This document shows positions 3,330 through 64,000 of a DNA stretch of 64,000 bases, one piece after another. A program made the translations under genes and the position numbers. Source of the DNA: Liolophura sinensis. Its lineage: Eukaryota > Mollusca > Polyplacophora > Chitonida > Chitonidae. The stretch lies in assembly GCF_032854445.1 (NCBI RefSeq), contig NC_088305.1, positions 11,163,606-11,227,605 on the forward strand, given 5' to 3'. Positions within the stretch are counted from its first letter, which is position 1. Every line of letters starts with the position of its first letter. The notes under the pieces were generated by a model. The model worked only from the letters and a program-made list of their open reading frames with translations. It was not told the DNA's origin and did no database searches.

Positions 3330-6300
3330 GTAAGTCGATAACATGAAGTTGAATGGCATTCATTTACATCATCAATTGATGTACATGTACTAGAGACCAA
3401 CATCTAATCTTTAATCTGATATCATTCTTATATACACAAGTTATCAACTATGAATCAATTATTACCAGGTGATAAACTGCACAACATGTAAACGCCATTT
3501 CGAGAAACCCAGCAAGAGATGCATTGTGTCACACCCGAAGATGGGTACATGTATTTTGTGTGTAATGTCTTCAAGTCAACAGTTGTCACTGGAGTGGTAT
3601 TTGAGTATTTACCACTAAGAAAAGTGCCACTGACAAGCTCACATTTTGCATTTATTTATACGCCACAACTCTTTTGCCCGTGTACACACATCTATGCAGA
3701 ACTGACAAACTGAGAAAAGCACTTTCTAGTCTGCTACCTTGTCATCCGACACCTATACTACTCTGCATAGGAGGCAGGGTACAAGACTGAAAGAGTACTT
3801 TTTGTGACGGATGTGCAGAAGAGTTTAGGATAAAAAATGTGGGCTTGTTGGTAGGATTTGTCTACTAGTGACAGTTGTGGACAAAGGTGTCACTTCTTAT
3901 TTGAAGAGATAGAGCACAAAATATCTTTCTTTCAGAGACTATGACATGTTTCATAGTGTCTTTTGCAGTGTAACAATTGTGGCAGTGCCACTCAAATCAG
4001 AGATAAGTGTGAAATTATTATTTGATTATTGATGGGTGCGCTTGCATATCTTGAAATATGTGATAAATGTTATAAATATGTGATTTCTCATAATGGTGGC
4101 CATGGTATGACGGAAATGTTGCCCTAAAGTTTGTAAAGAATTAATCATTCACTCATATTAATTCTAGAGACTAGTTAAACATGAGTATCGTTGTGTTGAC
4201 TCTTGTATGGTATGTTACTTCAACCAAGAGTGTTATGAAAATGACTGATCATTTGGAAAGTTTTATCCCCAGTAGCATAGATCAGAAGTCAACATAACAT
4301 ACATGTAAAACGATTGCAGCTATAAGTCTCCTGACCCAATTAGTTTCCTGTCCTATGTATAATTAACCCGACTCAGCACATCAGCAGTCTCACAAGCTCA
4401 GGCAGGTTTAGACGAAATATTAAATGTTGAGATTGTTGCAAGCTAACACTGCTAAAAGAGCACATTTTACAGTAGCAGCTAGCAGCGCCATTGAGCCGCC
4501 AGACCCTACTATGCATGTTGTATATTCACCAAATGCTGTAAAACGACATCGTTTAAGCGAGTCTCACACGAATCAAGTTTCAGCTAATAAGTACTACCTG
4601 CGGTCACAGATGTTTTGGCCCTACCCAAAACAGATTGGAGACAACTGGCAGCTACTGACTTAAACCAACTGTGAGCATTCTTACACCAAATGAATATATA
4701 CATCACAATATGCTCACAAATGACTTGCTCTGGCTCACTAGCCGAAACTTGCTTCGTGTGAGACCCTCTTCGTTTGCATTATGTTTTGCGAGAACCCCCA
4801 ACCTGTCACGTCCAAACCTGCGTAAACTTGTGAGGCTAATTGAGCTTATTAATGTTCAAATGGGGACAACAGTAAAGCAACGTGATTTACAATGATAGTA
4901 CAATGAAAAAATTGAGTTATGTTTTAAGGAGGTGCCACCAAAAATTCCAGATGGTTATGTAAAAACCAGGTGGGGGCTGTATCCTATACATTTTATATTC
5001 TGTAGGTACACAAATTATTATCATTCATTTGCGCTTTATCTTCCAGACATCAAGAAAAACTACCACAGTACCTGGATTAGAGGCCTCTAATCAAGAGTGA
5101 GTGTGTGAGACTGAATGTCCTGATGACATACTGTCACGGTGCAACAAGCTTTGCCCTGTGCCACCAAATTGAAATCAAGTACAGGGCGAAACAGTACCGT
5201 TTTGAAATCAATTGATATTTCAATCCCCACAGAGTGATGAAATTGACAAACCATGAGATGATTCAGTATGATTTAATGCTGTGAAATATATTAAATTCCA
5301 TTTATAGACATTATGAAATAACATAATAGTGGATAAATTCAGGAAACAATGGTTTACATGGATAAAAACATGAATATTTCATGATATGCTGGCTGCCATA
5401 GGTGAAATATTTTTGAGTACGACGTATCACTCCAATTGAATAAATAAATTGAAAATAAAAATAAAAAGGAGTGAATGTCCAAACATTTTGACCCCTGTAG
5501 CACAATATGGTGAAGACTGTGTACTTACATGACCTCAGTTTGTTTAATCTAAATTCTGAAGTGAAGGAATATATAAAGAAACTTTTTGGAATGATGTAAG
5601 TAGGTTTTTTTTTTTTTGCAAATGTATCAGAAATGTGAATGTTAGGATTAAACTGCTATCAATAGTAAGGAAAGAAGCCTTTTTGCAGAATTATGAAGGA
5701 TGAAAAAATTAGATTTTGGTTTTATTTGCTTGCTTGGGTGAAACACTGTTTGAATTGACATGACACCCCAGTTAGTCCTGTTATACTGACACCAGGCCAA
5801 CTAGTCCTGTTTCCTTTCTCTAACCACTCAGTGCTGAGCGCCAAGCAAGGCAGCAACAAGTACCTTATGTAGTCTTTTTCATATGACCTGACCCAGGTTT
5901 CATCCTGGGTGTCCTGACTATGAGGCAGACGCTCTAACCATTTGGCTCTGTTATGCCATGAGGCCTCTGCAGCTGAGGGGATTAGCACGGCGTAGTGACC
6001 CAGGAGCCTCCCACAAATGCAATTGCTGTGAGTTCACGTCCAGCTCATGCTGGCTTCGTCTCCGGCCGTAACTGGGAAGGTCTGGCAGTAACTTGCAGAT
6101 GGTCGTGGGTTTCCCTCGGACTCTCCCCTTTTTCCTCTCGCCATAATACTGGCTGCCATAGTATAAGTGAAATATTCTTGAGTACAGCATTAAACACCAA
6201 TCAAATGAATAAATTTATTCTGACATGTTTTAGAACGGGAAATGTTCCGGATATCGAGCGAGCCGGCAGTTTACAGGAGTTCCTTGTTGACCTCCATGGT

Positions 6301-9300
6301 CAGTATGGCTCCATCGCTTCCTTCTGGATAGGACAGAAGCTGGTGGTCAGTGTAGCCAGCCCCAAACTCTTCAAGGAACAGCAGGCCGTCTTCGACAGAC
6401 CAGGTGAGACATAAATGTAAAACCCCATAACATAGAGAGTAAAACCAGAGCAGTAACGACAATGCCACAGGCGAAATACAACCAGGGACCCCTTTCACGA
6501 AAAATGGAAAGTCAGATTTCTTGGAACCTTTTTCGTAAAGGGGAAGAAACTCTGTAAAAATTTTGTGAAAGTGGGCCCTGTTGTCAATATCCAACAGAGT
6601 TTTATTCTAAACTGTTTGTCTAAATGCTTAAATAGTAGCAAATTGGACGGATCCTGACATGGTGGATTAAGAAGAGTTCGCTAAATGAAGTATGCAGCGA
6701 TGTTAACTGCAATGTATTAGATGTCATGTTTTGATGTGTTTAGAATCATTCAAGCTTCCGTATTGTCATCACGTTTAATATACAAACACATCAAAACAAA
6801 AGATCTACTGCAGCGCATTTCCTGGTTTTTTAAGTTTTCACTGACTGACATTCCTCTACAAAATGACATTGCCACTTTACAGCATGGTAGGGCTACTTGC
6901 CTATCTTTTAACATGTCACTATTTGGGGATAGTCATAATTAGCAGCAAACTGTCATCATTTTTAGCTCACCTTACAAAATAAGGAGAGGTATAGTGAGAG
7001 GGGGATCAGAGGCTGTCAGCGGTGGCGGTGTCCAGTTTGGTTAAAGTTGTTGGCCAATCATAGGGTTGCAGTTGCCACCCATAGTACACAATCATCGGTA
7101 GCGATTTGCACTTGAAAAACCAGGGAAATCTGTCACCTCATAGCTAAAAATTTTGCTTAGCTATTCGCAGGGTTGCAGTTGCCTTCCATAGTACATGGAT
7201 TTCCAAAAGTACTTAGCGATTTGCATATCAAAGACCTCGGTGCTTAAATTGTGCACTAACTCCCCAAAGCGTCTCACCATCTCGATGATTTACAACTCCA
7301 TAACATATGCAATCACAGCTCTGCAATCCTTACACATGTGATAAACAGTCATAGCTGTGACAGTGTAATAATTTTGGCTTTTCTTGCTGATTTAATGTTC
7401 AGATTTTATCACTATATAATTAGAGAATAATGGGTATGACAGTGTCAATCATTCTATGTTTGTTAGTTTGGAGGTCAATATTTGAATGTGTCACATGACT
7501 TGAACAGTATGCTTTTTACATACTACTCAATCAGGCGATCCACCAGTATTCTCTGAATGCCTTGTTTAAATAGTTGTCACCCAAACCCGCCGAAGAAGAT
7601 TTCAGAAGGTTAATCTACTCCTTCTAATTAGTCTTTTTTAACTGGCCCGGATAGCACAGTTGGTAGAGCGTCCGCTTCAGGACCGGTAGATCCAGGATCA
7701 ATCCTTGATCGAGTCACACCTAAGACTTTAAAAGAGGGAGTTGTAACTTCCTCGCTTGGCGTTGAGCACGAAGGGGATAGTGCAATGACTGGTTGACCCG
7801 TATCAGTATAATGGCTCGGGCGGGGCAACTTACTTGCCTACAGTAAGTCGTCTCAGTGAAGCAGCACTAAATAAAGAGCGGTGGAAATCCGTCCTGCAGC
7901 AAGAAGGCACATTACACGTACATGTGCCCTAAGGATTCCTTCATCGTCATATGACTGAAAAATTGTTGAGTACGACGTTAAACCCCACTCACTCACTCTA
8001 ATTAGTTTTCTGTATTTTGAAAAGTTACATATATGTATATTCACATCGAATAGCAGTAGGTTTTATTTACATAATCAACATTTTAAATATAAAAAATATT
8101 GTTAGCCTAAAATCTATTTTGTCTTTGGCAATTTCCGTAAAATCAGTGTACAAACTTACGAGAGGTTACTGCTTTTCATGTAATGGAGCTAATAAGACTG
8201 TTAGTTATTGTTTTTCAGTGGAGCTAATGAGATTGTTTCGGCCCCTGTTTGGATCAAGTAGTATCCCCTTCACAAACAAGGCAGATGGCCGAACACGACG
8301 GACCAAGTACGACAAAGTCTTTACAAGAAGCGCCTTCAAGAACAGCTATGCCATTTTCCACAAGGTATTGGGCATTTTTTTTATGTCTACTGGCAATGTT
8401 TTAACGTAAAAAGTTTATCTTTCAGTTTTTTTTTGTTTTTTTTTTTGTGGTCTGCGAGATGCGACCTCAATCCTGTCCTGTTTACAGTCCCATGTGTAGC
8501 GCATGTCAGACACGGAAATGTTCTTGTCAGTAACTTGTCAAAGGTCGATGGTTTAAACCTGGTCTTCTAGGTTGCTTCACATGTAAAACTGACTACCCAT
8601 GTGTGTATGAAGTAAATTCTTAAACAATCAAGTGAATAAGGAAGTATGTGTTGAGGAGATAAGACATTGATTCTAGGATGTTTGTAAAGATATTCATACG
8701 CAGTATTAAAATCTTTTGCTCTTTGTGTGTGTGTTTTCTTTCCTTTTTTTTTTTTTTAAACATTTTATTAGTATTTGTTACGGGTACTTTTTAAAATTTG
8801 AATTTTTCTTTTTTCCTGGGAAGTATGTGAAAAAATTTTTCCTTTAAAACAAAGACAAAATTTGTGCTAGACCTGCTGGTAGTTTTATTTATTGAAAAAA
8901 AAAATCATTAATTTATGACTGTTTAATGTCCAGTCAGTTTTTATATGCTTATGTATGTTCCACGATTTTGGACTCGGGTAATTTTTCTTTTCGTTTTGAG
9001 GGTTAAAACATGATCAGGTCTGAATATATGTTGGGATGTTTGTCATTATCACCCATAACTGCCAAATTGGAAGGGTGTATTTGCTTTAGTAAACGCTTCA
9101 AGGAGCATCTATGTATTATGTTTGCATTATGTTTAGGTTTCCGCAGACTTGTCCACCAAATGGTCGACAATGCCAGATGAGCAGCACATCCCGCTGACTC
9201 AGCACATGTTGGCACTCTCCTTCAAGATCCTCATGTGGACGCTGGTCGGAGACTACTTCAAAGACGACAAGAAACTTCTGGAATTCAGGAAGAATTTTGA

Positions 9301-12300
9301 TGTGGTATGTAACATATCAAACAGTTTGAAACTTCTGATTTTGCTTTCAATTCTGCATTATTCCCAGCTTTACTCTCATCCATGTTGATTTTGTTTGACT
9401 TTTGAGTTATCCCCCCTTATTCTGCTTCATTTTGATCTGGTTTGACTTCTGAGTTATCCCCCCTTATACCCTCTCTGTAGATCAACGCACTTAACAGACA
9501 CGTCTCTTCCTGTTGCTTTTGTGTATATTAACATTGTGGTGTACATGTTTATTTTCCAGTAAAGGTGAAATATGAATGTACATTTCAAAGTAAACTAAAA
9601 TATGATTGGTTACCAGAAATTGTGAGAGATATTTAAATTGGACTGAACAGAGTTCCCACTTATTCTCCATTTGTAAAACAGAGCACTTTTCCCTCAATCA
9701 TCGTGTGTAGACCCAATTGCTTTAACTTGTGAACTTGTTCTCTGTTAATTTCTGTTTCAGTGCTGGTCCATCACAGAGGAGTCTTTGCTTGCTGAGAGCT
9801 TCCCAGAAGAGGGCAGTCAACAGTTCAAGAGGTTCAGTCAAGGTAAAATTAGCAAATAACCCCGTCATATTTTCTGATTTTCTGTCATTTGTTGGTAATT
9901 TTGCTTTGAATTCCGAGTTGCTATTACGCTCACAATTAGAGTGACAATACTTCACCCTGCATCAGTTCATTCTAGCGACGGATAAACATAGGCACATTTT
10001 CCGTTAAAACAGCTCGGTTACCCAGTTGTCAGAGAAGCAATGAAAGGGTCAAAATGCCATGGACACAAGGAAAAACGATAGATGAAATAGATAGATGAAT
10101 TATATTATGGTGTATGTCTTGTGATCCAATGCAACAACATTCTTGACTCCACATGTGAGTTGGATAATCAAACTGTGAAGGAGATTAAAATGAAATTTGA
10201 ACAGTAGTAAACTGAAAGCTTTTCAGATAGCAGATCTGGCCAATACGGCGTGAGAGAAGATAGGCTTGAGTGTTTACCCACAGGCAGGGGAAAGTCACTC
10301 TGCTCCATTGCTCTCACTGACATGGAAATGACTTATTTTATGGTGGTTTCCCCCGATTTCCTCCCACCATAATGCTGGCCACTGTCGTATAAGTGAAATG
10401 TTCTTGAGTACGGCTTAAACCACCAATCAAATAAATAAAAAATATTTTATGAAGATTAACACAACTCGCCAAACTTTGACCTGTAGACGGAAACAAGGTG
10501 AGAGCGAGTTTTCAGTCGTCATACACAGCCAGGTCTGCTTTCAGAATTCTTCCACTGACAAACACCGAAGTGATAAAATATTTTGCATCATGTGAAACGA
10601 AATCATTTTATTATAAATGTAAATAAATCAGACTGTAATTATTGAAACTTTTCAGCAAAATCTGCCCTCCATGACACTCTCAAGGATGTCCTTCAGAAAC
10701 AGAGGTCACGTCCCCGTGGCAACGACCTGATGTTTGTTGACATGGTGACGCTGGCGGGGATCTCAGAGGACACACAAGTAGAAGATCTGCTGACATTTAT
10801 AGTTTGGGGAGTTCACAAGACGGCCTTCAGTATGTATAATATCTGGTGGTACGAATATACCTATGTTTTCAGTGAAAGTGGAGGATGTTAGTTTCAGTTT
10901 GTCATTCTCTCTTGGCCAGTCTTTAACACTAGTATCTGTGCAACAACTAGAAACTTAAAATCTCAAGAGAAGTAAATGTCCTGGGCTCATTTGCACAGAG
11001 GGATTGTAACTACAGTCATTTGTAAACCTTACAATTGAGTTTACAATAAGTTGTTAATGCTGTCCATAAGTGTAAAACCCAAATAATGATAAAACTGTTC
11101 ATACTGAAACACCTAAGTGTAAAACCCTAATAATGATAATGCTGTTTATACTGAAGCCCTAAGTGTAAAACCCAAATAATGATAATGCTGTTTATACTGA
11201 AACCCATAAGTGTAAAACCCAAATAATGATAAAACTTTTCATACTGAAACACCTAAGTGTAAAACCCAAATAATGATAATGCTGTTTATACTGAAGCCCT
11301 AAGTGTAAGACCCAAATAATGATAAAACTGTTTATACTGAAACCCATAAGTGTAAAACCCAAATAATGATAAAACTGTTTATACTGAAACACCTAAGTGT
11401 AAAACCCTAATAATGGTAATGCTGTTTATACTGAAGCCCTAAGTGTAAAACCCAAATAATGATAACACTTTTTATCATGAAAACCACCAAGTGTAAGACC
11501 AAAATAATGATAAAAATTTTCTGACATCAATCAAATTTGCTCTCTGGCACAAAATTCTGTTTTGCTCTCTAGTGCTCAGTTGGGCGCTCTACTTCCTGGC
11601 CACGCACCCAGACGTTCAGCAGAAGCTTGTGAAGGAAATATCAACAGCTTTGGGAGAGTCAGAAGTGAATGAAAACAATGTAGACAAGCTCAGGTGAGAA
11701 ACGCTAGAGCGTGTAAGTTGAGTGGACACATCGGGGCAGGCATTGGCACAAAGGTTAAATTTGCTTCCTTTTTAATCGGGTTTCGAAGTAGTAGGCCATC
11801 AAGCAAATCAGTCACCATTTAGGCCACACCAATTGTATTTGTTGTTTTACAGGTAGAATAAATTTTTTTTCAGCATTTGAAGAGAGTATAGAAATAACAT
11901 TTGAAAATCATTTGTGGATTGTAGACTCAACAATTTTTGGGCCAATCAGCTGAAGGGAGAGTGAGACTTTAGCCAAGTGATCAGTTGCTCCTTTAATCTG
12001 GTGATGAATTTCTTTTTAATATTTTGTTTGATGTTTTAGATACCTGCGGCAGGTGTTGGATGAGACGCTCAGGTGCTCTGCACTTTCCCCTTGGTCAGCC
12101 AGGGTGCAGGATTTTGATACAGAGCTGGAAGGGCATAAGATTCCTAAAAATGTAAGTACACCTCAGTGTCATTATTATGCTATAATCGGAAAATGCCTGG
12201 TTTTATCTCCAGCTTAGGGCTGGATGGGTGATCTCCCATGTTCTAGGGAAAGCAGTTAGGGCGTGGTATGAGTTTGCGGGGCTGGGGAAAGAAAGGTCGT

Positions 12301-13940
12301 TGCGCGTGAAGAGCAGTTGCACGAGAAAGGCGAGGTCTGAGGGGTAATGTAGGCTGCTGGATGCGAGGAGTGTGGGGGGAATTAGGGGAATTTTCAAGAC
12401 ATTCAGTCCAGACTCACTCACTTTTGCCAGTAGGGGTTCTAGCCATGATGCACAGGAGTGTGTAACAGCGAGCCAGTCCCTGGTTACTGTTCATTGTATG
12501 TAATCACCATTTGCTACCGCCGAATGGGCCGGGAATTAAAACAGCCACTCTTGTTATACTTCTAAGCAAACCTGAAAAGAACTGTCAGAATCGTGTAAAA
12601 AATGAGTAACTTTTTCATGGACATAATTTAGGCCATTTACTATGTTTCGGTAAATTTTAAGCCAACACTTGATTTTCCTTCTCTCTTCCCAAGACCCCAG
12701 TGATCCATGCCCTAGGGGTGGTGCTCCAGGGAGACACATGGTGGGCAGAGCCTAACAAGTAAGTAGTGTCCCTGCCTGGGTCAAGTACGCTTTTATTAGC
12801 TGTATATGGCAAAGCTGATTTTTTAATGGTCGTTGGGTTTCTGCCTTCAAGATTTCACATTTGGAATGTAAATTAAGCCAACATGGTGCTACCTGGCCAT
12901 TCAGTGAGCAAGGTTTGGTTATGTGGGTGTTGACTGAGCTAATTCCAGCTCTTTTCAGCATGCTGAGTGTTGTTTTCTTTAAAGAGAATGACCTACTTCA
13001 CTGTGAAAGGCGAAAATGTAAACTTGTGTATTGCCTTTTAAAGACACCAACTCTTGCTAGTGTGATTTTGACATGATATAATTTTAGTGAATTGCACAGA
13101 ATTGGTTTCTTTCCTTTATTTCATTCTTGTTTTATGTTGTACATGTATTAATTATGCAACAGTGGTCAGTTTTATGGGTGGAGAAAACTGACCTTTGACT
13201 TCAAGGAGAAGGAAATTTAAATATCATTCAAATACCATTGAAAAGAGTATGCATTTCCTTGCAGGAGCATGCCATAAAAAATTCTAAATTCTAATATGTA
13301 GTTGATAAATTATAAATAAATTCAGCACTAAAAGCTGCTGTGGGCGTCTCCATTTTGCCTAAGAACTAGTCCTGAAGCCTTATGTAGCAGGCACCACCAG
13401 ATAGAAAAAAAATGTGCTTTTTTCAGCCTATAGTGTCATGTTTTTAAGTTTTCTTCTCCTTTAACAGACATTACTGAACAAGCTTGACATGTGGCTTTTC
13501 ACATTTACATGTGGCCTTGGCAAGAACAATGGAGGCTGAATGTACATGTATTTTCTCAAAACTTTTCAAGCTGTAGCTTTCAATTTATGCCAGAGTTGAT
13601 GGCTTTGAAAAGCTCAAAGTTGCCATGTACAGTGGCAGTAAGACTTTGTATATTTGGATTGTATTTTTTAACTTATTCTATCTATAGGTTTGACCCAGAC
13701 CGCTTCAGTTCTGAGAACACTAAGTCCCGTCCTCTGTTGGCATTTTCCCCATTCGGGTTTGCCGGAAAGCGTACGTGCCCTGGTGCTCAATTGGCTTACT
13801 TGGAGGCAACGTCTGTACTGGTGACCTTACTGCGTCAACACAAGGTCAAGATGGTGGAGGGGCTAGTCATCAATCCTGTGTACGGAATCGTCACTCACCC
13901 AGGGGACGAAATCTGGATCACGGTAGAGAAACGAAAGTGA
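3258..13940 (+). CDS. CYP20A1: CYP20A1-like cytochrome P450 (gene A), 11 exons
   Basis: Exons: 3258-3329, 5047-5096, 6234-6403, 8219-8364, 9137-9304, 9761-9842, 10656-10829, 11573-11693, 12040-12151, 12694-12758, 13688-13940. All junctions are GT-AG and all phases agree, giving 1413 nt and 470 aa (as I recall, vertebrate CYP20A1 is about 462 aa). Residues 1-24 form a membrane anchor, followed by a hinge with VPG, then YGSIASFW, the I-helix region WGVHKTAF (about 280-287), K-helix ETLR (336-339), KFDPDRF (387-393) and the heme loop GFAGKRTCPG with Cys417 as the expected thiolate ligand. The family is a haem mono-oxygenase anchored in the ER; vertebrate CYP20A1 is an orphan enzyme, so no substrate is assigned. 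The I-helix lacks the usual acidic-Thr pair. Introns hold SINE pieces (introns 2, 3 and 6) and a minisatellite (intron 7). Exon limits were placed by hand. Confidence 0.88.
3330..5046 (+). other. Gene A intron 1, containing the left duplication breakpoint
   Basis: Intron with GTAAGT donor and CTTCCAG acceptor. The breakpoint lies at 4318. Between 4424 and 4960 there are weakly coding-looking stretches (counterparts 41683-42290) with stops between them and indels between copies. I do not recognise them; an old mobile-element fragment is possible. Confidence 0.5.
5047..5096 (+). CDS. CYP20A1: Gene A exon 2: 50-nt hinge micro-exon
   Basis: A pyrimidine-rich acceptor (TTTATCTTCCAG) precedes 50 nt coding TSRKTTTVPGLEASNQ plus two bases of a Glu codon, then donor GTGAGT. 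It enters at phase 0 from exon 1 and leaves two bases that exon 3 completes. The spacing from VPG to GNVPDI is the same as from IPG to GNLPDI in vertebrate CYP20A1 as recalled. It is too short and lacks a Met, so simple ORF searches miss it. Confidence 0.85.
5735..5962 (-). mobile_element. tRNA-derived SINE, minus strand
   Basis: Read on the minus strand it has a tRNA-like head (TGGTTAGAGCGTCTGCCTCA, then a B-box-like GGATGAAACCTGG) and a body with CTTGCTTGGCGCTCAGCAC and AGGACTAGTTGGCCTGG. A related fragment lies at about 205-345. The copy-2 counterpart is about 42995-43232. Confidence 0.55.
5963..6216 (+). mobile_element. Nin-like tRNA SINE in gene A intron 2, just before exon 3
   Basis: tRNA-like head, then GTGAGTTCACGTCCAGCTCA (B-box region), CTCCGGCCGTAACTGGGAAG, TATAAGTGAAATATTCTTGA and a CAATCAAATGAATAAA tail. 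It ends about 18 bp before exon 3, so it forms part of the branch-point region. The copy-2 counterpart is about 43231-43486. A tail-only fragment of this class is at about 5389-5450 (42655-42722 in copy 2). Confidence 0.65.
7633..7996 (+). mobile_element. tRNA-derived SINE (ACTCACTC-tail family) with target-site duplication
   Basis: The tRNA-like head GCCCGGATAGCACAGTTGGT with GGATCAATCC as B box is followed by a body with CTCGCTTGGCGTTGAGCAC and GTATCAGTATAATGGCTCGG, and the tail GAGTACGACGTTAAACCCC with ACTCACTC. TCTAATTAGT occurs on both sides (7623-7632 and 7997-8006), a 10-bp target-site duplication. It lies in gene A intron 3; the copy-2 counterpart is about 44909-45268. Confidence 0.75.
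9385..9475 (+). repeat. Short tandem duplication with GAGTTATCCCCCC motif, gene A intron 5
   Basis: Two imperfect copies of about 48 bp, each with TGAGTTATCCCCCCTTAT. The reverse complement of this motif is the core of the small array at 25080-25165 in gene B. Copy 2 has the same at about 46655-46745. Confidence 0.55.
10342..10441 (+). mobile_element. Nin-like SINE 3' fragment, gene A intron 6
   Basis: It carries CCTCCCACCATAATGCTGGC, GTATAAGTGAAATGTTCTTG and CAATCAAATAAATAAA but no tRNA head. The copy-2 counterpart is about 47612-47712. Confidence 0.6.
11064..11512 (+). repeat. Minisatellite, about 45-nt unit, gene A intron 7
   Basis: About ten units containing AAGTGTAAAACCCAAATAAT, GATAAAACTG and TTTATACTGAAACAC, with point differences and two alternating subtypes. 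It ends about 60 bp before exon 8. Confidence 0.85.
13688..13940 (+). CDS. CYP20A1: Gene A exon 11: heme-binding C-terminal exon
   Basis: The exon completes a Lys codon, then reads FDPDRFSSENT, FSPFGFAGKRTCPG and a C-terminal DEIWITVEKRK before TGA. GKRTCPG supplies the G-x-R-x-C-x-G part of the P450 signature, but the upstream Phe is at -2 or -4 instead of the usual -3 from the first Gly. The same spacing is seen in gene B and, from memory, in vertebrate CYP20A1, so it looks like a family trait and not damage. Confidence 0.9.
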
Positions 13941-14250
13941 CTGTAAAGTATCCCTGTCATACTCAGCATGACGTCTTTACTTACATTCTATTATGGATGA
14001 GTAAAATGGGGTTCAAGGTCAAAAAGGAAGGTTCAAGGTCAATTAAGGTTAGCATTGAAGAATTACCAATGAAAGCCTAGTTACAAACACATCAGTCAAC
14101 ATCAAAAATGTTGAATGAAGATGGTGGTAAAATTGTTACAAGAAATTGTTAACCAGGTCAGATGTCAAAAGTCAGATGTGTTCGGACATTTGTTACCAAA
14201 AGATTTCATGAGGACATGTGTTCGTTGTCTTGGTAAGACATTGCTGAAGG

Positions 14251-14256
14251 AATAAA
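14251..14256 (+). terminator. Candidate poly(A) signal of gene A
   Basis: AATAAA lies 311 bp after the gene A stop and is the first such hexamer downstream. The counterpart in copy 2 is at 51508-51513. Use is inferred only from position. Confidence 0.45.
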
Positions 14257-15021
14257 GGTAAAGGGTTGCTATCTCTGCTCTGTAAGTTGCTATTTTTCAC
14301 TGTCCCAGCACTCAAGGACCATAGAACGGAAATATAAATCCTTTACAGACTAAAGCGTTTTTGAAGACTAGACTTGAACATCAGCAGAATGGTTTTGTTA
14401 TCGGAGGATTTTTTATGTTTTATTGGAGAGACTCTGTTATGGCTGTATGTTTTAATTTTTAACATTCACTGATGGCTTTTGAACATACAGTTGTATAGAT
14501 AGATGTTTTTTGTTTAATTAAAGTGCAGTTCTCTTTCGAAAGAAGAAAACAGTTGTTCTAAATGATCAAGGATGTTGATGGTTTATTAGCTCTGGGTGTT
14601 GGGGTGAAAGTGACAATCTTACAAAGTGTAGCAAATTCTGTTTTGTCTGTTATAAGATCTCATCTCTGTGACTATAAATACACATAGTCTGTCTTTATCT
14701 GGCTGTTCTATTGCAGGATCGTGAATAATTTTCGTTTGCTTTCACAGATGCAAAATGGTGCTTTTTTATGCTTGTTTTTATATTTAATGATAAAGAAATC
14801 TGTTAAATTTCACGTGTACATTTACATTACACAGATAGAGTGAATTTAAGTTTTGTTCAAAGTAAAAGATCATGTTTTGTTTTCTGTCTACACAGAATGG
14901 ATACATGCAATATGACACAAAATTTGTTTCAAAGTAACACTAGGATACAGTTCATGTTTTACAAAATCTTGCTTCTCTATGTGGACTTTATGATGATAGG
15001 AATGATATTCAAGGTGCACTC

Positions 15022-15245
15022 AAATCAGGGAAAACCTGAAATATCAGGGGAATACCTGGAGTATCAGCTAAATCCTGGAATATCAGGGAAATACCTGGAG
15101 TAGTAGCTAAATCCTGGAATATCAGAGAATACCTAGAATATCAGCTAAATCCTGGAATATCAGCTAAATCCTGGAATATCAGAGAATACCTGGAATATCA
15201 GCCAAATCCTGGAATATCAGAAAATACCTGGAATATGAGGGAAAA
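15022..15245 (+). repeat. Minisatellite with CCTGGAATATCAG unit
   Basis: About ten units of 19-21 nt alternate AATACCTGGAATATCAG and AAATCCTGGAATATCAG. The copy-2 counterpart is 52273-52500, where one segment differs in length. Confidence 0.75.
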
Positions 15246-16039
15246 TCTAGAAGACAGTGAATTTAAGATTTTAATGGTTTGATCCTGGAAAATCAGGGAA
15301 ATTTGAAGTCTGCTGTGGTAGCTAGTAGTGATTCTTAAAAGTAAAAGGGATCAAAATTTCTTGATCTATGCTGATATAGAATATAAAATTCGAATATACC
15401 CAGTACAAGAAATTTGTTTTGTGTTTTTAGTGAAGTTGTTTCGGAAATGCCAATGTAGTACTTGTGTAAAACGCACCAGCATACATTTGGAGAGAATTTC
15501 TGAAAGTAGCTGATCATGGCATTGAATTTAATCGAAAAACATTCTGGAATTTTAATAATAATCGAATGGAAAACCTTGGAATTTTCAAACCTTGTGGCTG
15601 TATGAGCCCTAGATATGTGGACAGAAGTGTATCTGATAACTTGCCAATCTCTCTCTAAGGCCTTTCGTGAATGTCATGCTGTGGTTAGACCCTGATTTTG
15701 CTCACATTTTGGGACCAATCCTATTTTATAAATTTCTGATGTTGTTGGTCGAAACATATGTCTCTGGAAATTGTAAAACACGGTCTTTGTTTTACACACT
15801 CCTGAAATTGTAAAACATGATATTTTTTTTTACACATTTATTTATGTTCTCTGCTTTTCTCAGACATGGACTATTGATGCTGTGTGCTTTTTGTTTGGAG
15901 TGGGGGGGGGGGGGAGGGGAGGAAGGGATTAACAAATTGTTACATCACATTAAATATATCTGTTCATTTCAACAGGTCATTTTTGTCATTTTTTGCTGCA
16001 TTCAGATTTAAGGCCTTTTTAACTGCTGCATGCTCTTGT

Positions 16040-16296: not shown

Positions 16297-16305
16297 TGAC
16301 ATCAT

Positions 16306-51513: not shown

Positions 51514-53154
51514 GGTAAAGGGTTGCTATCTCTGCTCTGTAAGTTGCTATTTTTCACTGTCCCAGCACTCAAGGACCATAGAACAGAAATATAAATCCTT
51601 TACAGACTAAAGCGTTTTTGAAGACTAGACTTGAACATCAGCAGAATGGTTTTGTTATCGGAGGATTTTTTATGTTTTATTGGAGAGACTCTGTTATGGC
51701 TGTATGTTTTAATTTTTAACATTCACTGATGGCTTTTGAACATACAGTTGTATAGATAGATGTTTTTTGTTTAATTAAAGTGCAGTTCTCTTTCGAAAGA
51801 AGAAAACAGTTGTTGTAAATGATCAAGGATGTTGATGGTTTATTAGCTCTGGGTGTTGGGGTGAAAGTGACAATCTTACAAAGTGTAGCAAATTCTGTTT
51901 TGTCTGTTATAAGATCTCATCTCTGTGACTATAAATACACAAAGCCTGTCTTTATCTGGCTGTTCTATTGCAGGATCGTGAATAATTTTCGTTTGCTTTC
52001 ACAGATGCAAAATGGTGCTTTTTTATGCTTGTTTTTATATTTAATGATAAAGAAATCTGTTAAATTTCACGTGTACATTTACATTACACAGATAGAGTGA
52101 ATTTAAGTTTTGTTCAAAGTAAAAGATCATGTTTTGTTTTTTGTCTACTGAGAATGGATACATATGACACAAAATTTGTTTCAAAGTAACACTAGGATAC
52201 AGTTCATGTTTTACAAAATCTTGCTTCTCTATGTCGACTTCATGATGATAGGAATGATATTTAAGGTGCACTCAAATCAGGGAAAACCTGAAATATCAGG
52301 GGAATACCTGGAGTATCAGCTAAATCCTGGAATATCAGAGAATACCTGGAATAGTAGCTAAATCCTGGAATATCAGAGAATACCTAGAATATCAGCTAAA
52401 TCCTGGAATATCAGCTAAATCCTGGAATATCAGAGAATACCTGGAATATCAGCCAAATCCTGGAATATCAGAAAATACCTGGAATATGAGGGAAAATCTA
52501 GAAGACAGTGAATTTAAGATTGTAATGGTTTGATCCTGGAAAATCAGGGAAGTTTGAAGTCTGCTGTAGTAGCTAGTAGTGATTCTTAAAAGTAAAAGGG
52601 CTCAAAATTTCTTGATCTATGCTGATATAGAACATAAAATTCAAATATACCCAGTACAAGAAATTTGTTGTGTGTTTTTAGTGAAGTTGTTTCAGAAATG
52701 CCAATGTAGTACTTGTGTAAAACGCACCAGCATACATTTGGAGAGAATTTCTGAAAGTAGCTGATCATGGCATTGAATTTAATCGAAAAACATTCTGGAA
52801 TTTTAGTAATAATCGAATGGAAAACCTTGGAATTTTCAAACCTTGTGGCTGTATGAGCCCTAGATATGTGGACAGAAGTGTATCTGATAACTTGCCAATC
52901 TCTCTCTAAGGCCTATCGTGAATGTCATGCTGTGGTTAGAGCCTGATTTTGCTCACATTTTGGGACCAATCCTATTTTATAAATTTCTGATGTTGTTGGT
53001 CGAAACATATGTCTCTCTAGAAATTGTAAAACACGGTTTTTGTTTTTACACACTCCTGAAATTGTAAAACATGATGTTTTTTTTTTACACATTTATTTAT
53101 GTTCTCTGCTTTTCTTACGAGCGTTCACAGACATGGACTGTTGATGCTGTGTGC

Positions 53155-53292
53155 ACCTGACGTATTTACACGGATATAAATATACATATTTGCATTATGG
53201 TTCATCTTGATAATCCGATCATATTTTTTTTGGGCTCATTACTAGTTTTGAACAGTAATATTAATATACTTATTATTTATTCATAAATGTGC
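53155..53292. other. 138-bp stretch present only in copy 2
   Basis: AT-rich sequence between two TGTGC pentamers, where copy 1 has a single TGTGC at about 15883-15887. It could be a small insertion with a 5-bp site duplication, or a deletion in copy 1 between the pentamers. No terminal inverted repeats were seen. Confidence 0.7.
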
Positions 53293-53681
53293 TTTTTGTT
53301 TTCATTTTGGGGGGGGGGGGGAGGAAGGGATTAACAAATTGTTACATCACATTAAATATATCTGTTCATTTCAACAGGTCATTTTTGTCATTTTTTGCTG
53401 CATTCAGATTTAAGGCCTTTTTAACCGCTGCATGGTCTTGTTGGCGGGGGAGACTCAGTGGCTGAGCGGCTTTTAAAGCTGATAGCTTTTCAATCACAAG
53501 GACACATCAGGTGTGGGTTCAAACCTAGACATGGTCACTTCTGTTCTCACTGTTGTCGAGTTGTTGGTGACAGATTGGTGACATGTCACATAAGGGAAAA
53601 TTGCCAGTAATTTGCCCAAGGTTGGTGGTTTATCTCAGGCAGGTTTCCTCCACATGTGAAACAAAAATGGATTGACATCAT

Positions 53682-53942
53682 ATATTTATTTATTTATTTG
53701 ATTGGTGTTTTACGCTGTACTCAAGAATATTTCACTCATATGACGGCGGCCAGCATTATGGTGAGGAAACCGGGCAGAACCTGGGTGTAACTCACAACCA
53801 TCTGCAGGTTGCTGGCAGACCTTCTCACGTACGGACGGAGAGGAAGCCAGCATGAGCTGGACTTGAACTCATAGCGACCGCATTGGTGAGAGACTCATTA
53901 CGCTGCGCTAGTGCCCTAACCAACTGAGCCACGGAGGGCCCC
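53682..53942 (-). mobile_element. Nin-like tRNA SINE, minus strand (copy 2)
   Basis: Counterpart of 16306-16566 with the same TGACATCAT flanks, showing that the insertion came before the duplication (or is shared by both haplotypes). Confidence 0.8.
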
Positions 53943-56328
53943 TGACATCATGCAAGTGCTTATGGCGGCGAACAACAATCAACTACATGTCAGCAAGCAA
54001 AAAATCCTGAAGGCCATTTTCAGAATCGACGTGCTGTTCTTTTAAACAAAAAACAAACCAACATGTAACCAACTGTGTTGACTGTTATCATGTACTGTAT
54101 GTATTTCTGAAATGCCAAGCTGTTGTAGCAAAACCGTCCTGAGTCGCGTGAGAAACTACACATACGTGTGTTTTATGTTTGAGCAATCAGTACAGTACTT
54201 CAAATATATGTTCATTATTTTGCATTATTCTTCTTCAACAGCATCAGAAGATTCGCTCTATTTCTGAAGACCGGCCCTGATGGTAGAGCATTCGCTTTGG
54301 GGGCGGTAGATCCAGGGTCAATCCTGGGTAGGGCCACACTTAAGACCTTAAGACAGGAAGTTGCACTTCCTCGCTTGGCGTTGAGCATTAAGAGGGTAGT
54401 GCAACGACTGGTTGACAAGTATCAGTATAATGGCTTGGGCGAGGCGGCTTACTTTCACTTTGGTAAGTCGTCTCAGTGAAGCAGCATCAGGTACAATAAG
54501 AACAAGGAGGCACATTACACGTACATGCACTCTTGGGACTCCTTCGTTGTCAGATTTCCTGAAGTTCATGTAGCTTTATTGAGAGCTTCACAACACGTAG
54601 CTTTATTGAGAGCTTCACAACATCTTGGTTAATAAACTGTGAGCTTTATATGCTAACATTTTATTAATTGCATATGTTAAAACTTTGCTGCTACATATAA
54701 CACATCTATATTCTGGAGTATACATCCACATAATATTATTTTCTACTTAAAAACCATCTGCCTTACTTTTAAGTACATCCACGTATATACTTAATAAAAA
54801 GTGTAATGATCGGTAATATTGTCGGCAATTATAATTAGCACTCGATAATAAGTGAGGTAAACATAAACATTTGTCTGTGGTACAAAAAAAAAGTAGCCCC
54901 ATTTTTTACGAGCTCACACAGTTTCCCAAAATATGGTTTCACATGTGGAATTAGCACTTGATCAAATCTATACTGGAACGAAATTTTTCATTTTTGTGTG
55001 AAATCGTTTTTGGGACTGTAAAGTAACATAAATACAGCATTTTTCTGTGGTACAAAAATAACATGAACGGAATTGGCACAATCTGTCATCAGGTATAATG
55101 TATATTATAATTATATTATCATAATGTTTATTATGGCACAAAATGTTACAAACTGACACAGTTTGACAAAATTTTATTTCATGTAACGAATTATTCTCTG
55201 AAACTATTCTCGGTTATATTGGCTCAAAATAAGGCATTTTTCTGTGGTGTTTAAAAAAAAGGAAGCACTATTTGTTACAAACTGACAGTTTCATAAATCA
55301 TTTCATGTAAGGAATTGGCACTTCATAAAATGTATAAAAGCAGAAAATATATCACCATTTTATGGAAACAACTTTCTGTGTAAGAACGTACACAGTTTTT
55401 CAAAACATTATTTCACAAACAGAATTTAATTACTTTTTATTTATCGTAAACTTGTTTTTCATAAAAACTAATTTTACCAAGAATGAAACTCAGCCGTTCA
55501 AGACATTATTTATACGAGACAGAAACCAAAGCATCTTTGCGACAGCTGCTATATTCAAAGTTCATGTCAGTGTGCATGAAGGCCCTGTGTTAAATGAATG
55601 GACCATTTGAAGTTGACAATTATGATTCAAAAACATGTTAATACAAAGTGGACAATAATTAACATTTAGAAAATAGTCTGTAAATTGCGGCCTTTCCCCA
55701 AACCTCTCAGAAAATACTTGATTACTTTATTATATTTACACTTTTAAGCCGCATGTATAAAACAGTTAAGCTGTCTGACTTGCTGTATTGGCTGAATTGT
55801 CAAATTAAAACCAGAAGAAAACTATTATGATTTGTAAATATGAACAAATCATGGCCTGTGAATCCAGCTTTTAAAACACAGTTTGTTCTGTTTTCAGCTG
55901 GTTACCCAATAGGACAAATTTGAACTTATGACTTAAAGGGTTCGTGAAGCATAATTTTGCTTTATGCTTGTATAAAATAATGTTCTTCCAGTTAGAATTC
56001 GATAAACCAATACAAGAAATCAGATTGTGGAGACAGGTTTCGGCAGTGTATACACGTATATAATTGTAGACCTGTGATAGTCGCCTGATTTTTGCATCAC
56101 TTATAGAAATAATTCTGACAGAAAATATGTATCAACAAGCATTCTAATTAATATTCCCCCTAAATAAGTAAACTTTTTCTTTTCTGTATTATTAGTTTAC
56201 ACACTCAACATTTACCATCACCATTTTTATTCTTTCATTTATCTTTTAAACAGAATATATAGTACTTTTTTCAAGTCAGATACATGAATATATACCTGTA
56301 TCAAGTTCAGCTGTCAATCATTGCCACC

Positions 56329-59300
56329 TCATCGCTTAGCAACTTTAATCCACACCTCCTCACTGACATGAGTCACAGGTCCAAAGACAGGCTTTATGTT
56401 CTGATCTTCAACCAGCTTGAAGCAGAACCTCCCAACTAGCGTTGCCAGGACAACGGCGGTCTCCACGTAAGCAAATCTGTAACCGGGGCAAATCCTCTTC
56501 CCCGCCAGACCAAACGGAGAAAACACATGACCTTGCCGCTTCTTCATGTTTTCTGCGCTGAATCTCTCCGGATCAAATCTGACAGGAAAATTTAGCACCA
56601 GTTTTCATTTCTTATGCCATACTATTTGTAACATTACGGTACTGGCCATAGTCAAATGGTCTGAGCTGTTAACTTTTCAAATGCTATGACAAACAACTTA
56701 AGGTGCAGGTTCAAACCCGGCTTTGGACAGGGAAGTTGTAGATTCTCTCGACCTTAAAGGCAAAGAAAACACTAAAATAAAGTACTTATCAGATGAAACA
56801 TCATTAATCACTGTCCAGAAAAATAGTTTGAGTTACTTTTTTAGGATTTATCTAACCGACTATTCTATTGTGGTTTGTTGGGACCCGGAGGGTATCAGTG
56901 ACGTCACATCAATATTTTTGGCTTGAAATAGTTTGTTTCAAGGCCCATTTGTTAAATGCATTCATAGCTCTAAATGAAGATGCATTCTGAATGATGAAAT
57001 GCAGCAATTTTGGTGTGTCATGTGTCAAAAAGCTGAAATGACATCACTGGTCCCAATATGTCAGAAAAGTTTTAAAATGCATTTTACTTTTTACCGTCAA
57101 AAAATAATCTAAAAAAATAAATCCAACTAATTATTATAATAACAATATTTAATAATCTTTCATCTGACGTACTTCATGCTAGTGTGCTCTTGGCCTTTAA
57201 TATTTATGGGGGACCTGGGGGACAATAATCCATCAGCAATGCTCACCGGGCACTGTGTGCTGCCTAACATTTGTTGTAGACCATTTGTCTTCCAGCACTA
57301 TGACGCACAAGTCTGTATGTCACATGCGTGGAAAGTTTGATCAAAAAGTTGTCAGATGTCGGTGGTTTACCCTGTGCGTCTCTATTTCTTTCACCCCAAA
57401 AACTTTTTTTTTTTCTTTCATGAGTGAAAAAGTCTCCAATATGGTCTTAAACAACAATTAAACCAATTAAGATAATTCTGCACCAGCAAAATGGAGGTAT
57501 ACATGTTACTTTGTATTTTGAAGAAACTGAACAGAACTCAACAGATTTGAAGCAGTGGGAGCATGCTGCAAGGCACATAAATCAGGGTTCACGCTGCATG
57601 GCCTGTTAATCAGGCGTCATGCTGCAGGGCCAATAAATCAGGTGTCACGCTGCAAGGCTCCCTATTGAAATCTTGAATACAAGCGTCGCGCTGCAAGGCT
57701 CCCTATTGAAATCTTGAAAGCTGAAAGTAACAACAGTCTTCAAACCATGGCCGAGGTGGTTAGCGTGCAAGTGCGGCACAATGGCCCATGAGCCTCTGAG
57801 CCTATGTAGTGGCTGTGAGTTCAAGTCCAGCTCATGTTGACTTCCTCTCCGGTCATACATGGCAAGGTTTGACAGCAACCTGCGGATGGTTATGGGTTTC
57901 CTCCAGGCTCTGCTCAGTTTCCTCCAACCATAATGCCGTCGTATAAGCGATGTATTCTTGTATACAGCATGAAACAGCAATCAAACCAACAAATAAATCA
58001 AACCCTAGTCTTCTTTACCCTAGTCATCTTTACCTGAGATTCACACTGCATATTGCTAAGATGCTACAGTACTGATACAGGCATTTTAACCTAAATCAAA
58101 CCTCACCTTGTAGGGTCTGGCCAGTACTTCTCATCTTGTAACATGACTCCCAGGGCAGTTATTATTGGGGTCTGTAAACAGGCGATACAGAAATGAGTCA
58201 AAACTAGATGTTCATAAAACACATGTTCCCCCTCCCCCACCCCGCCCACCTCCTTTTTTTATTAAAACATTACGTGGAGTGTCCGGAAACACTCAGTTCA
58301 GCAGCTCAGACAAGACTGCTCAAAGCATAACACTTTAATAAACACAAAGAAAATTGTAACAAATGTATAAATGCTGGTAAAAACGAAGAAAAAAAATATC
58401 GAACATTAAGGCAATGTTCTTAATAAATTGACGACATTATGACAATATCGCTAAGCGAGTGCATTTCTGAATCCTGTGTACAAAAAACATATTAATGCAT
58501 ACTGGTATTCATATATACCTGACATGCACCTCGTGTTCTACAGACTGTGGATAAGGGCACAACAGCTGTAACTTTAGGCAAAAAAAAACCAAGGTAAGGT
58601 TAACATGTTTCATAATTCCTCAACCATTTTGCATGTGAAAGAACAACTTTTAAGTGCAGTTTATGATCATTTTTAATATGATTTTGGAGACAAAACTACA
58701 TTGGATGCATTGGCCACGTTCAGGGCTTCTCGTAAAGTATAATTTTATCAGGCTACACAAAACGATGCCCTCAGAATATTCTGAAATAAACACCTTGCAA
58801 ATATGCGGAAAGGTTGAAGAATTAAGGTATGGAAAAAAAAAAAGCTGAAAATTGGTGAACCTGCTTGGATTTTGTTTTAAACCACAGCCATTTCTTTTCC
58901 CTTGAGTAAGAGGCTGTCCATTATATTGGACTTTGTTTAATTCTGATGTTGTCCTATTCAAAGTTTCTGTCCAATCTAACTTGAGACAGAAATACACACA
59001 TCAAAGATCCAATCACAACAGGTGCTCACCCTTTTCTGTATGAGGTATCCCCCCAGCTCCACGTCATCATCAAGGAACTTAGCAGCCCAGGAAGCCACAA
59101 CTGAGCACCTCAGTGTCTCCTCTTGAACTTGGCGAAGGTATCTGAAAAGGTAAATTGGGTGGTTAAATATCGCACGAGGTAAATTGTAACTAAATGCCTT
59201 GTTAAAGACATCAATGTTTAATTAATTGCTGGAATTAGGGTGCCCAGCTCTTTGTGCTAGGAACCCTATTGAAGTTGCTCACATTATTCTTCCTAGACAT

Positions 59301-62300
59301 CCACTTCTGTTTTATTTTCAATGTTCTCATTACCACATCGAATGCCATTTACAGTCTCATGTTTTCAACTTGTTCTCACTGGAATACGCCATTAAATCCT
59401 AATCATTCATTCATTCTTCCTTGACATCAACGATTATAAAATGAATACCATTTGAGTTTCGATGAAACTTCATCAGCCTACTACCAGCCCGGATAGCACA
59501 GTTGGTATAGCGTCCGCTTCGGGACCGGTAGATCCAGGATCAATCCTTGATCGAGTCACACCTAAGACTTTAAAAAGAGGAAGTTGGAACATCCTCGCTT
59601 GGCGTTCAGCATGAAGGGGATAGTGCAAGGACTGGCTGACCCATATCAGTATAATCCCTTGGACGGAGCGCCTTACTTACCTTCGGTAAGTTGGGAGCAA
59701 AAAATTTGAACGTTTTTAGTAGTGCAGGTCATGTGACTTAGCGATTATATTGGATTTTGTTCAAAACCTTTAAAAAACTTCCCCATGAGGAAGTCATATT
59801 CAGCGTACACAGACTGAGGAGGGCACACCCAGTGTACACAGACTGAGAAAAACACACCCAGTGTACACACACTGAGGAAGGCACACCCAGTGCACTCACA
59901 CTAAGGAAGACATGCAGTGCACTCAGACTGAGGAAGGCACACCCAGTGTACACAGATGAAAGCACACCCAGTGTACATAGACAGAGAAAGGCACACCCAG
60001 TGCACTAAGACTGAGGAAGGCACATCCAGTGCACTCAGACTGAGGAAGGCACACCCAGTGTACACAGACTGAGGAAGACACATCCAGTGCACTAAGACTA
60101 AGGAAGGCATATCCAGTGCTCTCAGACTGAGGAAGGTACACCCAGTGTACACGAACTGAGGAAGACACATCCAGTGTACTCAGAATGAAGAAGGCACACC
60201 CAGTGCACACAGACTGAGGAAGACACATCCAGCGCACTCCAACTGAGGAAGGCACACCCAGTGTACACAGACTGAGGAAGTCACACCCAGTGTACACAGA
60301 CTGAGGAAGACAAACCCAGTGTACAAAGACTAAAGAAGACACACCCAGTGTACACAGACTGATGAAGACACACCCAGTGTACACAGACTGATGAAAGCAC
60401 ACCCAGTGTACACACACTGAGGAAAACACACCCAGTGTACACACACTGAGGAAGGCACACCCAGCGCACTCAGACTGAGTAAGGCACACCCAGTGCACTC
60501 AGACTGAGGAAGGCAAACCCAGTGTACACAGACTGAGGAAGGCAAAGCCAGTGTACACACACTGAGGAAGGCACATCCAGTGTACACAGACTGAGGAAGG
60601 CAAACCCAGAGTACACAGACTGAGGAAGACAAACCCAGAGTACACAGACTGAGTAAGGCACATCCAGTGTACACAGACTGAGGAAGGCAAACCCAGAGTA
60701 CACAGACTGAGGAAGGCAAACCCAGAGTACACAGACTGAGGAAGGCAAACCCAGAGTACACAGACTGAGGAAGGCACACCCAGCGCACTCAGACTGAGTA
60801 AGGCACACCCAGTGCACTCACACTAAGGAAGACATGCAGTGTACACAGACTGAGGAAGGCACATCCAGTGTACACAGACTGAGGAAGGCAAACCCAGAGT
60901 ACACAGACTGAGGAAGGCAAACCCAGTGTACACAGACTGAGAAAGGCACACCCAGTGCACTAAGACTGAGGAAGGCAAACCCAGTGTACACAGACTGAGG
61001 AAGGCAAATCCAGTGTACACAGACTGAGGAAGACACATCCAGCGCACTCCAACTGAGGAAGACACACCCAGTGTACACAGACTGAGGAAGGCACATCCAG
61101 TGTACACAGACTGAGTAAGGCACATCCAGTGTACACAGACTGAGGAAGACGCATCCAGCGCACTCCAACTGAGGAAGACACACCCAGTGTACACAGACTG
61201 AGGAAGGCACATTCAGTGTACACAGACTGAGGAAGGCACATTCAGTGTACACAGACTGAGCAGGGTACACCCAGTGTACACAGACTGAGGAAGAAACACC
61301 TTGTCAGTTATCACGCCCTCTCAGTTATCATACCCTCTCAGTAATCATTCCCTCTCAGTTATCATGCCTTCTCAGTTATCATGTGCTCTCAGTTACAATG
61401 CGCTCGGTTATCATACCCTCTCAGTTCTCGTGCCCTCTCAGTTATCATGTAGTCTTAGTTACCATACAATCTCAATTATCATGGGCTCTCAGTTATCATG
61501 CACTCCAAGTTATCATGCATGATCAGTTATCATGCACTCTCAGTAATCGTGCCCTCTCAGTTATCATGCTCTCTCAGTAATCGTCTCCATTACCACACCC
61601 TCTCGGTTATCACACCCTCTCAGTTACGATGCATTCTCAGTTATTATGCATTCTCAGTTGTCATGTACTCTCAGTTTTCATGCACTCTAAGTCATCATGC
61701 TCTCTTAGTTATCGGGACCTTCGTGGCTCAGTCGGTTAGTGCGCTAGCGCAGCGTAATGACCCAGGAGCCTCACACCAATGCGGTCGCTGTGAGTTCAAG
61801 TCCAGCTCATGCTGGCTTCCTCTCTGGCCGTAAGTGGGAAGGTCTGCCAGCAACCTGCGGATGGTCGTGGGTTTCCCCCGTGCTCTACCCGGTTTCCTGG
61901 CCGCCGTCTTATAAGTGAAATATTCTTGAGTACGGCGTAAAAACACCAATCAGATAAATAAATCAATCTTAGTTATCATGCACTCCCAGTAATCATGCCC
62001 TCTCAGTTATCATGCACAGATGTAGCATACTCACGTCAGATTGTTGATGTTTGTAGGGTTAACATTATCTCCACCCAGCACAGTCTGTATTTCTGTGGCC
62101 AGCTTTTCCTGAGCATCTTGGTCACAGGCCAGGAAGTACAGAGCCCAAGTCAGCACTTTGAGAGAGAACAGGGTTAAACATGCATTACAGTTTTATACTG
62201 CAATTCTACAAAACTTTTCGGCAAGTTAATGCTTACTTTGACGAAAGAAAATTTTAATTACATGGGTGATTTGCACTCAATTTTGCGAAATCAAGTAAAA

Positions 62301-63059
62301 GGTTAGATCGAATTTAATCCAAAAAGGGTAACCCCCAGCAAGTCTTTATACAGTACACGCAATGTAAGTATCATTAAAACTGGCCCAGTAATAGCTAGAG
62401 ACAACAACAGGGAAATAAAAGTGGAACATCCCAATGAAGGGAGATAATTCAAATAAGGGGGGATAACTCAAATAAAGGGGGATAACTCAAATAAAGGGGG
62501 ATAACTCAAATAAACACTGTCTGCATATTCTCACACAATCTCAATCTCCTAAGAGGATAGTACAGAAGTTCTGAAACATCACAGGACACGTGGAATTTGA
62601 ATTTTCACACTTTTTATTTCTCTCACAAAACAAGCCAGTAACAAAATTATCCACATGTAACATCTGATTGGCTGAGAGTTCATACAGGTTGACTTGCCCA
62701 TAAAACACAGAATAAAATTAATGCTGCCTTACTTCAATAATAATAATTAAGATCTGGGATTTAAATTTCACACTTTTTCCCACCAAACAAGCCAGTAACC
62801 CTGTTACACACCTGTAGCATATTAGTGCATACCTACAATGCAGGTAATTTCTGACTGAATGAGAGACTCTACTTACTGTTTCCTGTGGTGTGGAACCCAC
62901 CAATCATATAGCTGAGGCCGTCGGCAAAGACACGATCCAGGTTGATGGGCGAGTCCAGGGACATGAGGTAGTCTATGAACAGAACCTTGTCATCCCTTGC
63001 CCTCTCCAACTGCTTATGCTGAATTACCTCCTCAACAATTCTGTATATTGTAGATTTCC
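56329..63059 (-). CDS. Second copy of gene B (B'), exons 7-11 only within the window
   Basis: Exons in transcript order: 63059-62877, 62155-62035, 59141-59030, 58171-58107, 56578-56329. The encoded peptides appear identical to gene B exons 7-11 (GGFHTTGN, EETLRCS, GLAGKRICPG), with the same splice sites. Exons 1-6, including the exon-3 position that is frameshifted in gene B, would lie beyond 64000. Whether B' is intact is unknown. Confidence 0.85.
59801..61299 (-). repeat. Minisatellite, 29-nt unit (copy 2)
   Basis: Same length (1499 bp) and, as far as I can compare by eye, the same order of unit variants as 22452-23950. Confidence 0.95.
61714..61966 (+). mobile_element. Nin-like tRNA SINE inside the minisatellite (copy 2)
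   Basis: Counterpart of 24365-24617 with the same flanking repeat and only a few base changes. Confidence 0.85.
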
Positions 63060-63935
63060 CTGTCAACAATTGTCTACATTGTATATCCCTGTCAACAAAT
63101 CTGTACATTGTTGATTTCTTTATCAACAATACAGTACCATATAGATTTCCCTGTCAACAATTCAGGACACTGAAGATTTCCCTGTAAACAATTCTGTATA
63201 TTGAAGATTTCTCTGTTAACAATTCAGTACATTTTAGTTCCCTGTCAACAATTCTACACATTGTATATTTCTCTTTTAACAAGTTCTCACATTGTAGATT
63301 TCCCTGTCAACAATTCTACACATTGTATATTTCCCTGTCTACAATTCTGTACATTGAAGATTTCTCTGTCAACAATTCAGTACATTTTAGATCCCTGTCA
63401 ACAATTCTGTACACTGAAGATTTCTCTGTCAACAATTCAGTACATTTTAGATCCCTGTCAACAATTCTGTACACTGAAGATTTCTCTGTCAACAATTCAG
63501 TAAATTTTAGATCCCTGTCAACAATTCTATATTTCCCTGTTAACAAATCTGTACATTGTGAATTTCCCTGTCAACAATTCCGCACATCGTATATTTCCCT
63601 GTCAACAATTCTGTACAGTGAAGATTTTTCTGTCAACAATTCAGTACACTGTAGATCCTAGTCAACAATTCCACACTTTGTATATTTCCCTGTCAACAAA
63701 TCTGTACATTATTGATTTCCCTGTCAACAATTCTATGCATTGTAGATTTCCTTGTCAATAATTCTGTACACTGTAGATTTCCCTGTCAACAATTCTGTGC
63801 ATTGTACATTTCTCTTCTTTACATTGTAAGTTAACCTGTCAAGTATTCTGCACACTCTAAATTTCTCTTTCAAAATACCTCTATACTGTAGATTTCCCTG
63901 TCAGCAACTGTGTTGACCTTATATTTCCTTGTCTA
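63060..63935 (-). repeat. Exon-7-derived minisatellite (copy 2)
   Basis: Counterpart of 25711-26585, near-identical in sequence and length, abutting B' exon 7. Confidence 0.88.
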
Positions 63936-64000
63936 CAATCATGTAGAATAATTATAGCGTAGAATTTTCAATAGAAATAATAAAGACTGAAGAAGTTTTT

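Follow-up and report, generated by a model that had tools for sequence, protein, structure and literature searches.

A long direct repeat with its left edge inside a CYP20-like gene in Liolophura sinensis: possible tandem duplication with later exchange, or two haplotypes joined in assembly

The 64,000-nucleotide stretch of Liolophura sinensis DNA analyzed here (the window) includes a long direct repeat whose inner junction brings together parts of two different genes, and it raises the question of whether the animal carries a tandem duplication or the assembly presents a single locus twice. Comparison of the window with itself showed that nucleotides 4318-26650 recur on the same strand as 41577-63999. 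Self-BLASTN divided this match into 4318-15860 versus 41577-53115 (97.2% identity, gaps counted) and 15883-26650 versus 53288-63999 (99.0% identity, gaps counted), while a global alignment of the copies showed 261 substitutions among 22,186 aligned positions, along with 39 indels (one of them is merely the window edge). The length and identity of the match exclude chance as its source. Both copies lie in direct orientation on a single contig, as in a tandem duplication, over 22.3 kb, and no N bases were found in the whole 64-kb window. A preliminary description of this DNA had proposed a 37-kb tandem duplication with sequence from 4318 recurring from 41577, which is exactly where the self-BLASTN match starts. 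The repeat stands over the 22.3 kb that are visible twice; the 37 kb, on the other hand, is the spacing of the copies (37,259 bp at the left end) and not a measured duplicated length, and a real duplication is one of the readings weighed below. The right copy runs to the window end and its right edge lies beyond it. A unit of 37 kb, taken from the spacing, would make nucleotides 26651-41576, which lie outside both large self-matches and have no partner in the window, the remainder of the left unit.

The left edge of the repeat, at 4318, is located inside intron 1 of a cytochrome P450 gene on the plus strand, named here gene A, which like a second gene, B, we take to be akin to vertebrate CYP20A1. 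Gene A is complete, with 11 exons encoding 470 amino acids, AG/GT sites at all internal junctions and a stop codon ending at 13940. Exon 1 (3258-3329) lies to the left of the unit; exons 2 to 11 (5047-5096, 6234-6403, 8219-8364, 9137-9304, 9761-9842, 10656-10829, 11573-11693, 12040-12151, 12694-12758, and 13688-13940) lie inside it, and the protein matches the Pfam P450 family PF00067 with an E value of 6.5e-63. The edge in intron 1 of a CYP20A1-like gene, as previously described, was therefore recovered from the positions of exons 1 and 2. In the right copy, exons 2 to 11 (A', 42319-51197, plus strand) retain their AG/GT sites and differ from gene A by a single amino acid (V to I); exon 1 is missing, in agreement with the earlier account of the junction. 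The first in-frame ATG of the joined A' exons corresponds to residue 77 and, with the start exon missing, A' is probably not made as a P450. The expectation that intact genes would be found at both outer edges held on the left, where gene A is complete; the right edge falls outside the window.

Gene B (18981-40107, minus strand) is a second CYP20-like gene, arranged tail to tail with gene A. Exon 3 (30200-30032) and exons 4 to 11 (29334-18981) were located by protein matches to gene A, except for exon 7, which like exon 1 (40107-40027) and exon 2 (37331-37264) was placed by reading the sequence; exon 2 is tentative and has no good donor in phase. The eight exon pairs compared between A and B (3 to 6 and 8 to 11) have protein identities of 28.9-59.5%. 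When joined, exons 4 to 11 of gene B form an open frame of 374 amino acids that matches PF00067 with an E value of 2e-60, but by comparison with gene A the reading frame is not kept from exon 3 to exon 4; this, like the lack of a good exon 2 donor, may reflect a broken gene or a base error in the assembly. The window also includes exons 7 to 11 of the second copy, B' (63059-62877, 62155-62035, 59141-59030, 58171-58107, and 56578-56329, minus strand; span 56329-63059), and these are identical to those of B, with no differences in 731 bp, inside the block of low divergence described below.

The name CYP20 was assigned to A and B by motif. Both include the P450 Pfam domain, as does the CYP20 family, and the available part of a report on CYP20A1 of the annelid Capitella (PMC4229089) gives the I-helix AGFHTT, close to GGFHTT in gene B, and FDPER, found here as FDPER or FDPDR. 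The same part of that source gives the cysteine loop as PFGFGKRKCLG, whereas the chiton genes have PFG(F/L)AGKR(T/I)CPG, with one extra residue. The unusual I-helix of gene A, WGVHKT, departs from that of Capitella, for which a single CYP20A1 is reported there instead of two diverged genes arranged tail to tail (PMC4229089). Comparison of gene A with solved structures gave CYP3A4 chains as the top match (E value 1e-26), and none of the best 60 of 278 matching chains was CYP20-named.

Between gene B and the junction, a first exon was recognized on the plus strand (40585-40738). It encodes a signal peptide, identified by eye, and a Thr/Ser-rich stretch, and ends in a GTAAAC donor in phase 1; it starts 478 bp from the gene B start codon, on the opposite strand, and matches no Pfam family above the cut-off. 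The rest of its gene is absent from the left unit, and the junction follows 838 bp after the exon, which agrees with the orphan secreted exon that had been proposed to precede the junction. A fused transcript running from this exon into A' was considered and rejected, since the exon is out of frame with A' exons 2, 3, 5, and 6 and can be joined in frame only by skipping to exon 4, 7, or 8.

The divergence between the copies is far from uniform. In 500-bp bins its unevenness gave a chi-square of 278.6 with 43 degrees of freedom, against a maximum of 85.0 in 2,000 permutations, and a model of real duplication consequently needs an added exchange. The best single change point is nucleotide 17469, with a support interval of 117 bp (17469-17585) at 2 log-likelihood units; to its left 246 of 13,062 sites differ (1.88%) and to its right 15 of 9,124 (0.16%), an 11-fold step. 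The left part splits again at 8185, where divergence goes from 3.30% to 1.29% (gain 26.3), and includes a local rise to 2.3% at 14818-16900, so that the fall is not smooth; the right part has no clear further split (gain 2.4). The preliminary description had not noticed this step. To the right of 17,469 the copies differ by 15 substitutions and a lone single-base indel, apart from a deletion and a repeat shift of 29 bp each, and the occurrence of only one single-base indel beside 15 substitutions makes these differences look like mutations and not like long-read errors. In this block, of at least 9.1 kb and 99.84% identical, minisatellites take up about 2.7 kb and their arrays have not changed in length: those of 29, 17, and 31 bp are equally long in both copies, although the 29-bp array is internally shifted by one unit. 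A 47-bp array in the more diverged left part likewise measures 449 bp in each copy, so equal array length proves little when taken alone.

The coding differences between A and A' have the character of differences between alleles, as if acquired while both were functional. There are nine, all in exons 3 to 11 (exon 2 is identical), eight of them synonymous and one the V to I replacement, while the neutral expectation is 72% non-synonymous. In tests that use a single locus and nine changes, the synonymous excess has a P value of 0.0002 if both copies are unconstrained and of 0.003 to 0.007, depending on the constraint assumed, if gene A has been constrained and A' free since the split. Within 5047-13940, 9 of 1,341 coding sites differ compared to 143 of 7,501 non-coding sites (Fisher P = 0.0006), a coding divergence of about one third of the non-coding. 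A' carries the mark of purifying selection although it has no exon 1. Because of the synonymous bias and the poor fit of an unconstrained A', the left-part differences resemble those between alleles, as they do in heterotype duplications; together with the low coding divergence, the kept splice sites, and the 11-fold step, they fit two haplotypes better than a long-lived truncated copy. A real duplication with a truncated, orphaned P450, as proposed earlier, is plausible, but with eight of nine changes synonymous and the AG/GT sites of exons 2 to 11 kept, it would be a mistake to regard A' as an orphan of long standing.

A truncated A' that has drifted since the duplication and thereby reached 2-3% divergence, which is the plain reading of the earlier account, agrees with the missing exon 1 and with a first in-frame ATG at residue 77, but with a single non-synonymous change among nine (P 0.003 to 0.007 if A' is unconstrained) it is very improbable. 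An older real tandem duplication, dating from the 2-3% divergence, whose right half was homogenized by gene conversion while a different promoter or first exon kept A' under selection, would account for both the step and the preserved open frame of A'. A conversion tract of at least 9 kb is, however, long, and the signal-peptide exon, the alternative first exon tested for A', joins exon 2 out of frame; we regard this history as unlikely, though less so than simple drift. A much stronger competitor, with a probability that falls somewhat short of even, is a false heterotype duplication, in which two haplotypes of one locus were assembled end to end, one ending at 41576 and the other beginning at the equivalent of 4318. 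No gene would then be truncated in the animal; the false join would simply lack A' exon 1 and the remaining exons of the signal-peptide gene. The 1-3% divergence on the left with eight of nine coding changes synonymous agrees with this explanation, as does a join without a repeat able to explain unequal crossing-over. According to the available part of a study of false duplications (PMC9516828), borders between heterozygous and homozygous sequence are prone to them, and one case had 5' and 3' exons missing at the join; allele-like differences, partial genes at the join, and a border between heterozygous and near-homozygous sequence are features that such cases share with the present locus. An assembly gap between the copies, which is absent here, is described there as a usual mark and not as a strict requirement, since joins by unsupported, gap-filled sequence are also reported, and the same excerpts mention a tandem duplication that was real, specific to one allele, and covered at haploid depth (PMC9516828).

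Against a false duplication stand the lack of an N gap and the need for an assembler to have kept apart a 9.1-kb block that is 99.84% identical with unchanged minisatellite lengths, when assemblers of noisy reads would tend to collapse such a block and not to duplicate it. For these reasons we rank first, at about an even chance and slightly ahead, a recent real tandem duplication that later acquired its left part from a different haplotype by exchange; this order draws on the expected behavior of assemblers and not on data from this animal. The sharp drop within 117 bp, such as a single crossover would leave, supports the young duplication. It is weakened by the fact that two haplotypes would give this pattern too where heterozygous sequence borders on near-homozygous sequence, a kind of border named as prone to false duplication in PMC9516828, and by the equal length of the 47-bp array in the left part, which makes this property not special to the right block. 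Both a real and a false duplication are ordinary events, and no new mechanism is needed. If the duplication is real, it would be a copy-number variant of recent origin, affecting a P450 for whose relative in vertebrates no clear function is known (PMC4229089). If it is false, an annotation of this assembly would include two spurious features, a truncated P450 and a one-exon gene; as a matter of routine caution, a 'paralogue' that differs by 1-3% with mostly synonymous changes is a possible allele until the reads are checked.

The favored young duplication would have arisen as a head-to-tail segmental duplication of about 37 kb, by a break-and-join event with little or no homology (AGC at most), and its junction would fuse intron 1 of the signal-peptide gene to intron 1 of gene A. 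An ordinary crossover, or a long conversion, at about 17.5 kb would later have swapped the left part of unit 1 for that of another haplotype, carried by a single-copy homologue, with gene A and most of gene B persisting in this unit. The left part would then diverge as alleles do (1-3%), and the right part would be nearly identical, its 0.16% giving the age of the duplication. That the step at 17.47 kb is the fossil of a crossover in which a chromosome with the duplication recombined with a single-copy one is a doubtful suggestion, and the further step at 8185 and the local rise at 14818-16900 indicate that one crossover is not enough for all the heterogeneity. If it were correct, divergence would be U-shaped along the unit, reaching the level of alleles at the outer ends and its minimum between them; this minimum would date the duplication, and the shape alone would separate young real duplications from false ones. 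Known tandem segmental duplications that cut genes at their edges have in common with this locus the head-to-tail arrangement, the high identity, and the partial genes at the inner junction, but the strongly stepped divergence sets it apart, and its right edge is beyond the window. A literature search on exchange in tandem duplications returned no match.

The start of the repeat is sharp at 4318 and 41577, and the flanks at the inner junction (41574-41579) and at the left edge have only AGC in common. Unequal crossing-over at a shared repeat is unsupported, as the match begins at the breakpoint itself; non-allelic homologous recombination would place a repeat at both unit edges, and only AGC was found at those in the window, the right outer edge being outside it. 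The junction could have been formed by end joining or by template switching at a 3-bp homology, and AGC could also be shared by chance. Each copy starts with an imperfect palindromic sequence (4318-4840 and 41577-42121), stronger in the right copy. Of 423 sliding windows, 5 gave a stronger fold than the 600 bases that open the right copy at 41577, a fold with a z score of -5.9 against 20 shuffles, and 96 gave a stronger fold than the start of the copy at 4318. The palindrome arms begin, by alignment, 68 bp inside the copy, although the predicted fold pairs the first bases too. As the cause of the break the palindrome was discarded, the coincidence being weak when 96 of 423 windows fold more strongly than the copy at 4318. 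A SINE-like element with a tRNA-like head and an ACTC-repeat tail was recognized by eye at 7640-8000; Rfam at the gathering threshold and ARAGORN with bacterial settings gave no matches, this element included.

Very long minisatellites with 63- and 31-bp units fill introns of gene B (31060-36631 and 37502-39208). Compared to the splice boundaries, their best matches (31/63 and 20/31) were at background level. A 31-bp minisatellite in intron 6 of gene B (25683-26463, minus strand; copy at 63032-63812) overruns the acceptor and covers 28 bases at the beginning of exon 7, which starts at 25710, and its unit matches the boundary between intron 6 and exon 7 at 30 of 31 positions. Within this intron 19 windows agree with the acceptor plus exon start in at least 24 of 34 positions, and a strict pattern fitted only two. 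Arrays across intron-exon boundaries have been named mirages in amphioxus genes, according to the part of PMC3087553 available. Nine arrays were tested against splice boundaries; besides this array and the 41-bp array described next, one with a 17-bp unit matched a donor flank, but it owes this match to its position within 40 bases of that flank. A 41-bp array (29875-30045, minus strand) adjoins the donor of gene B exon 3, seems to be a copy of the exon end and donor region (35/41), and is possibly a second, 5' mirage-like array in this gene.
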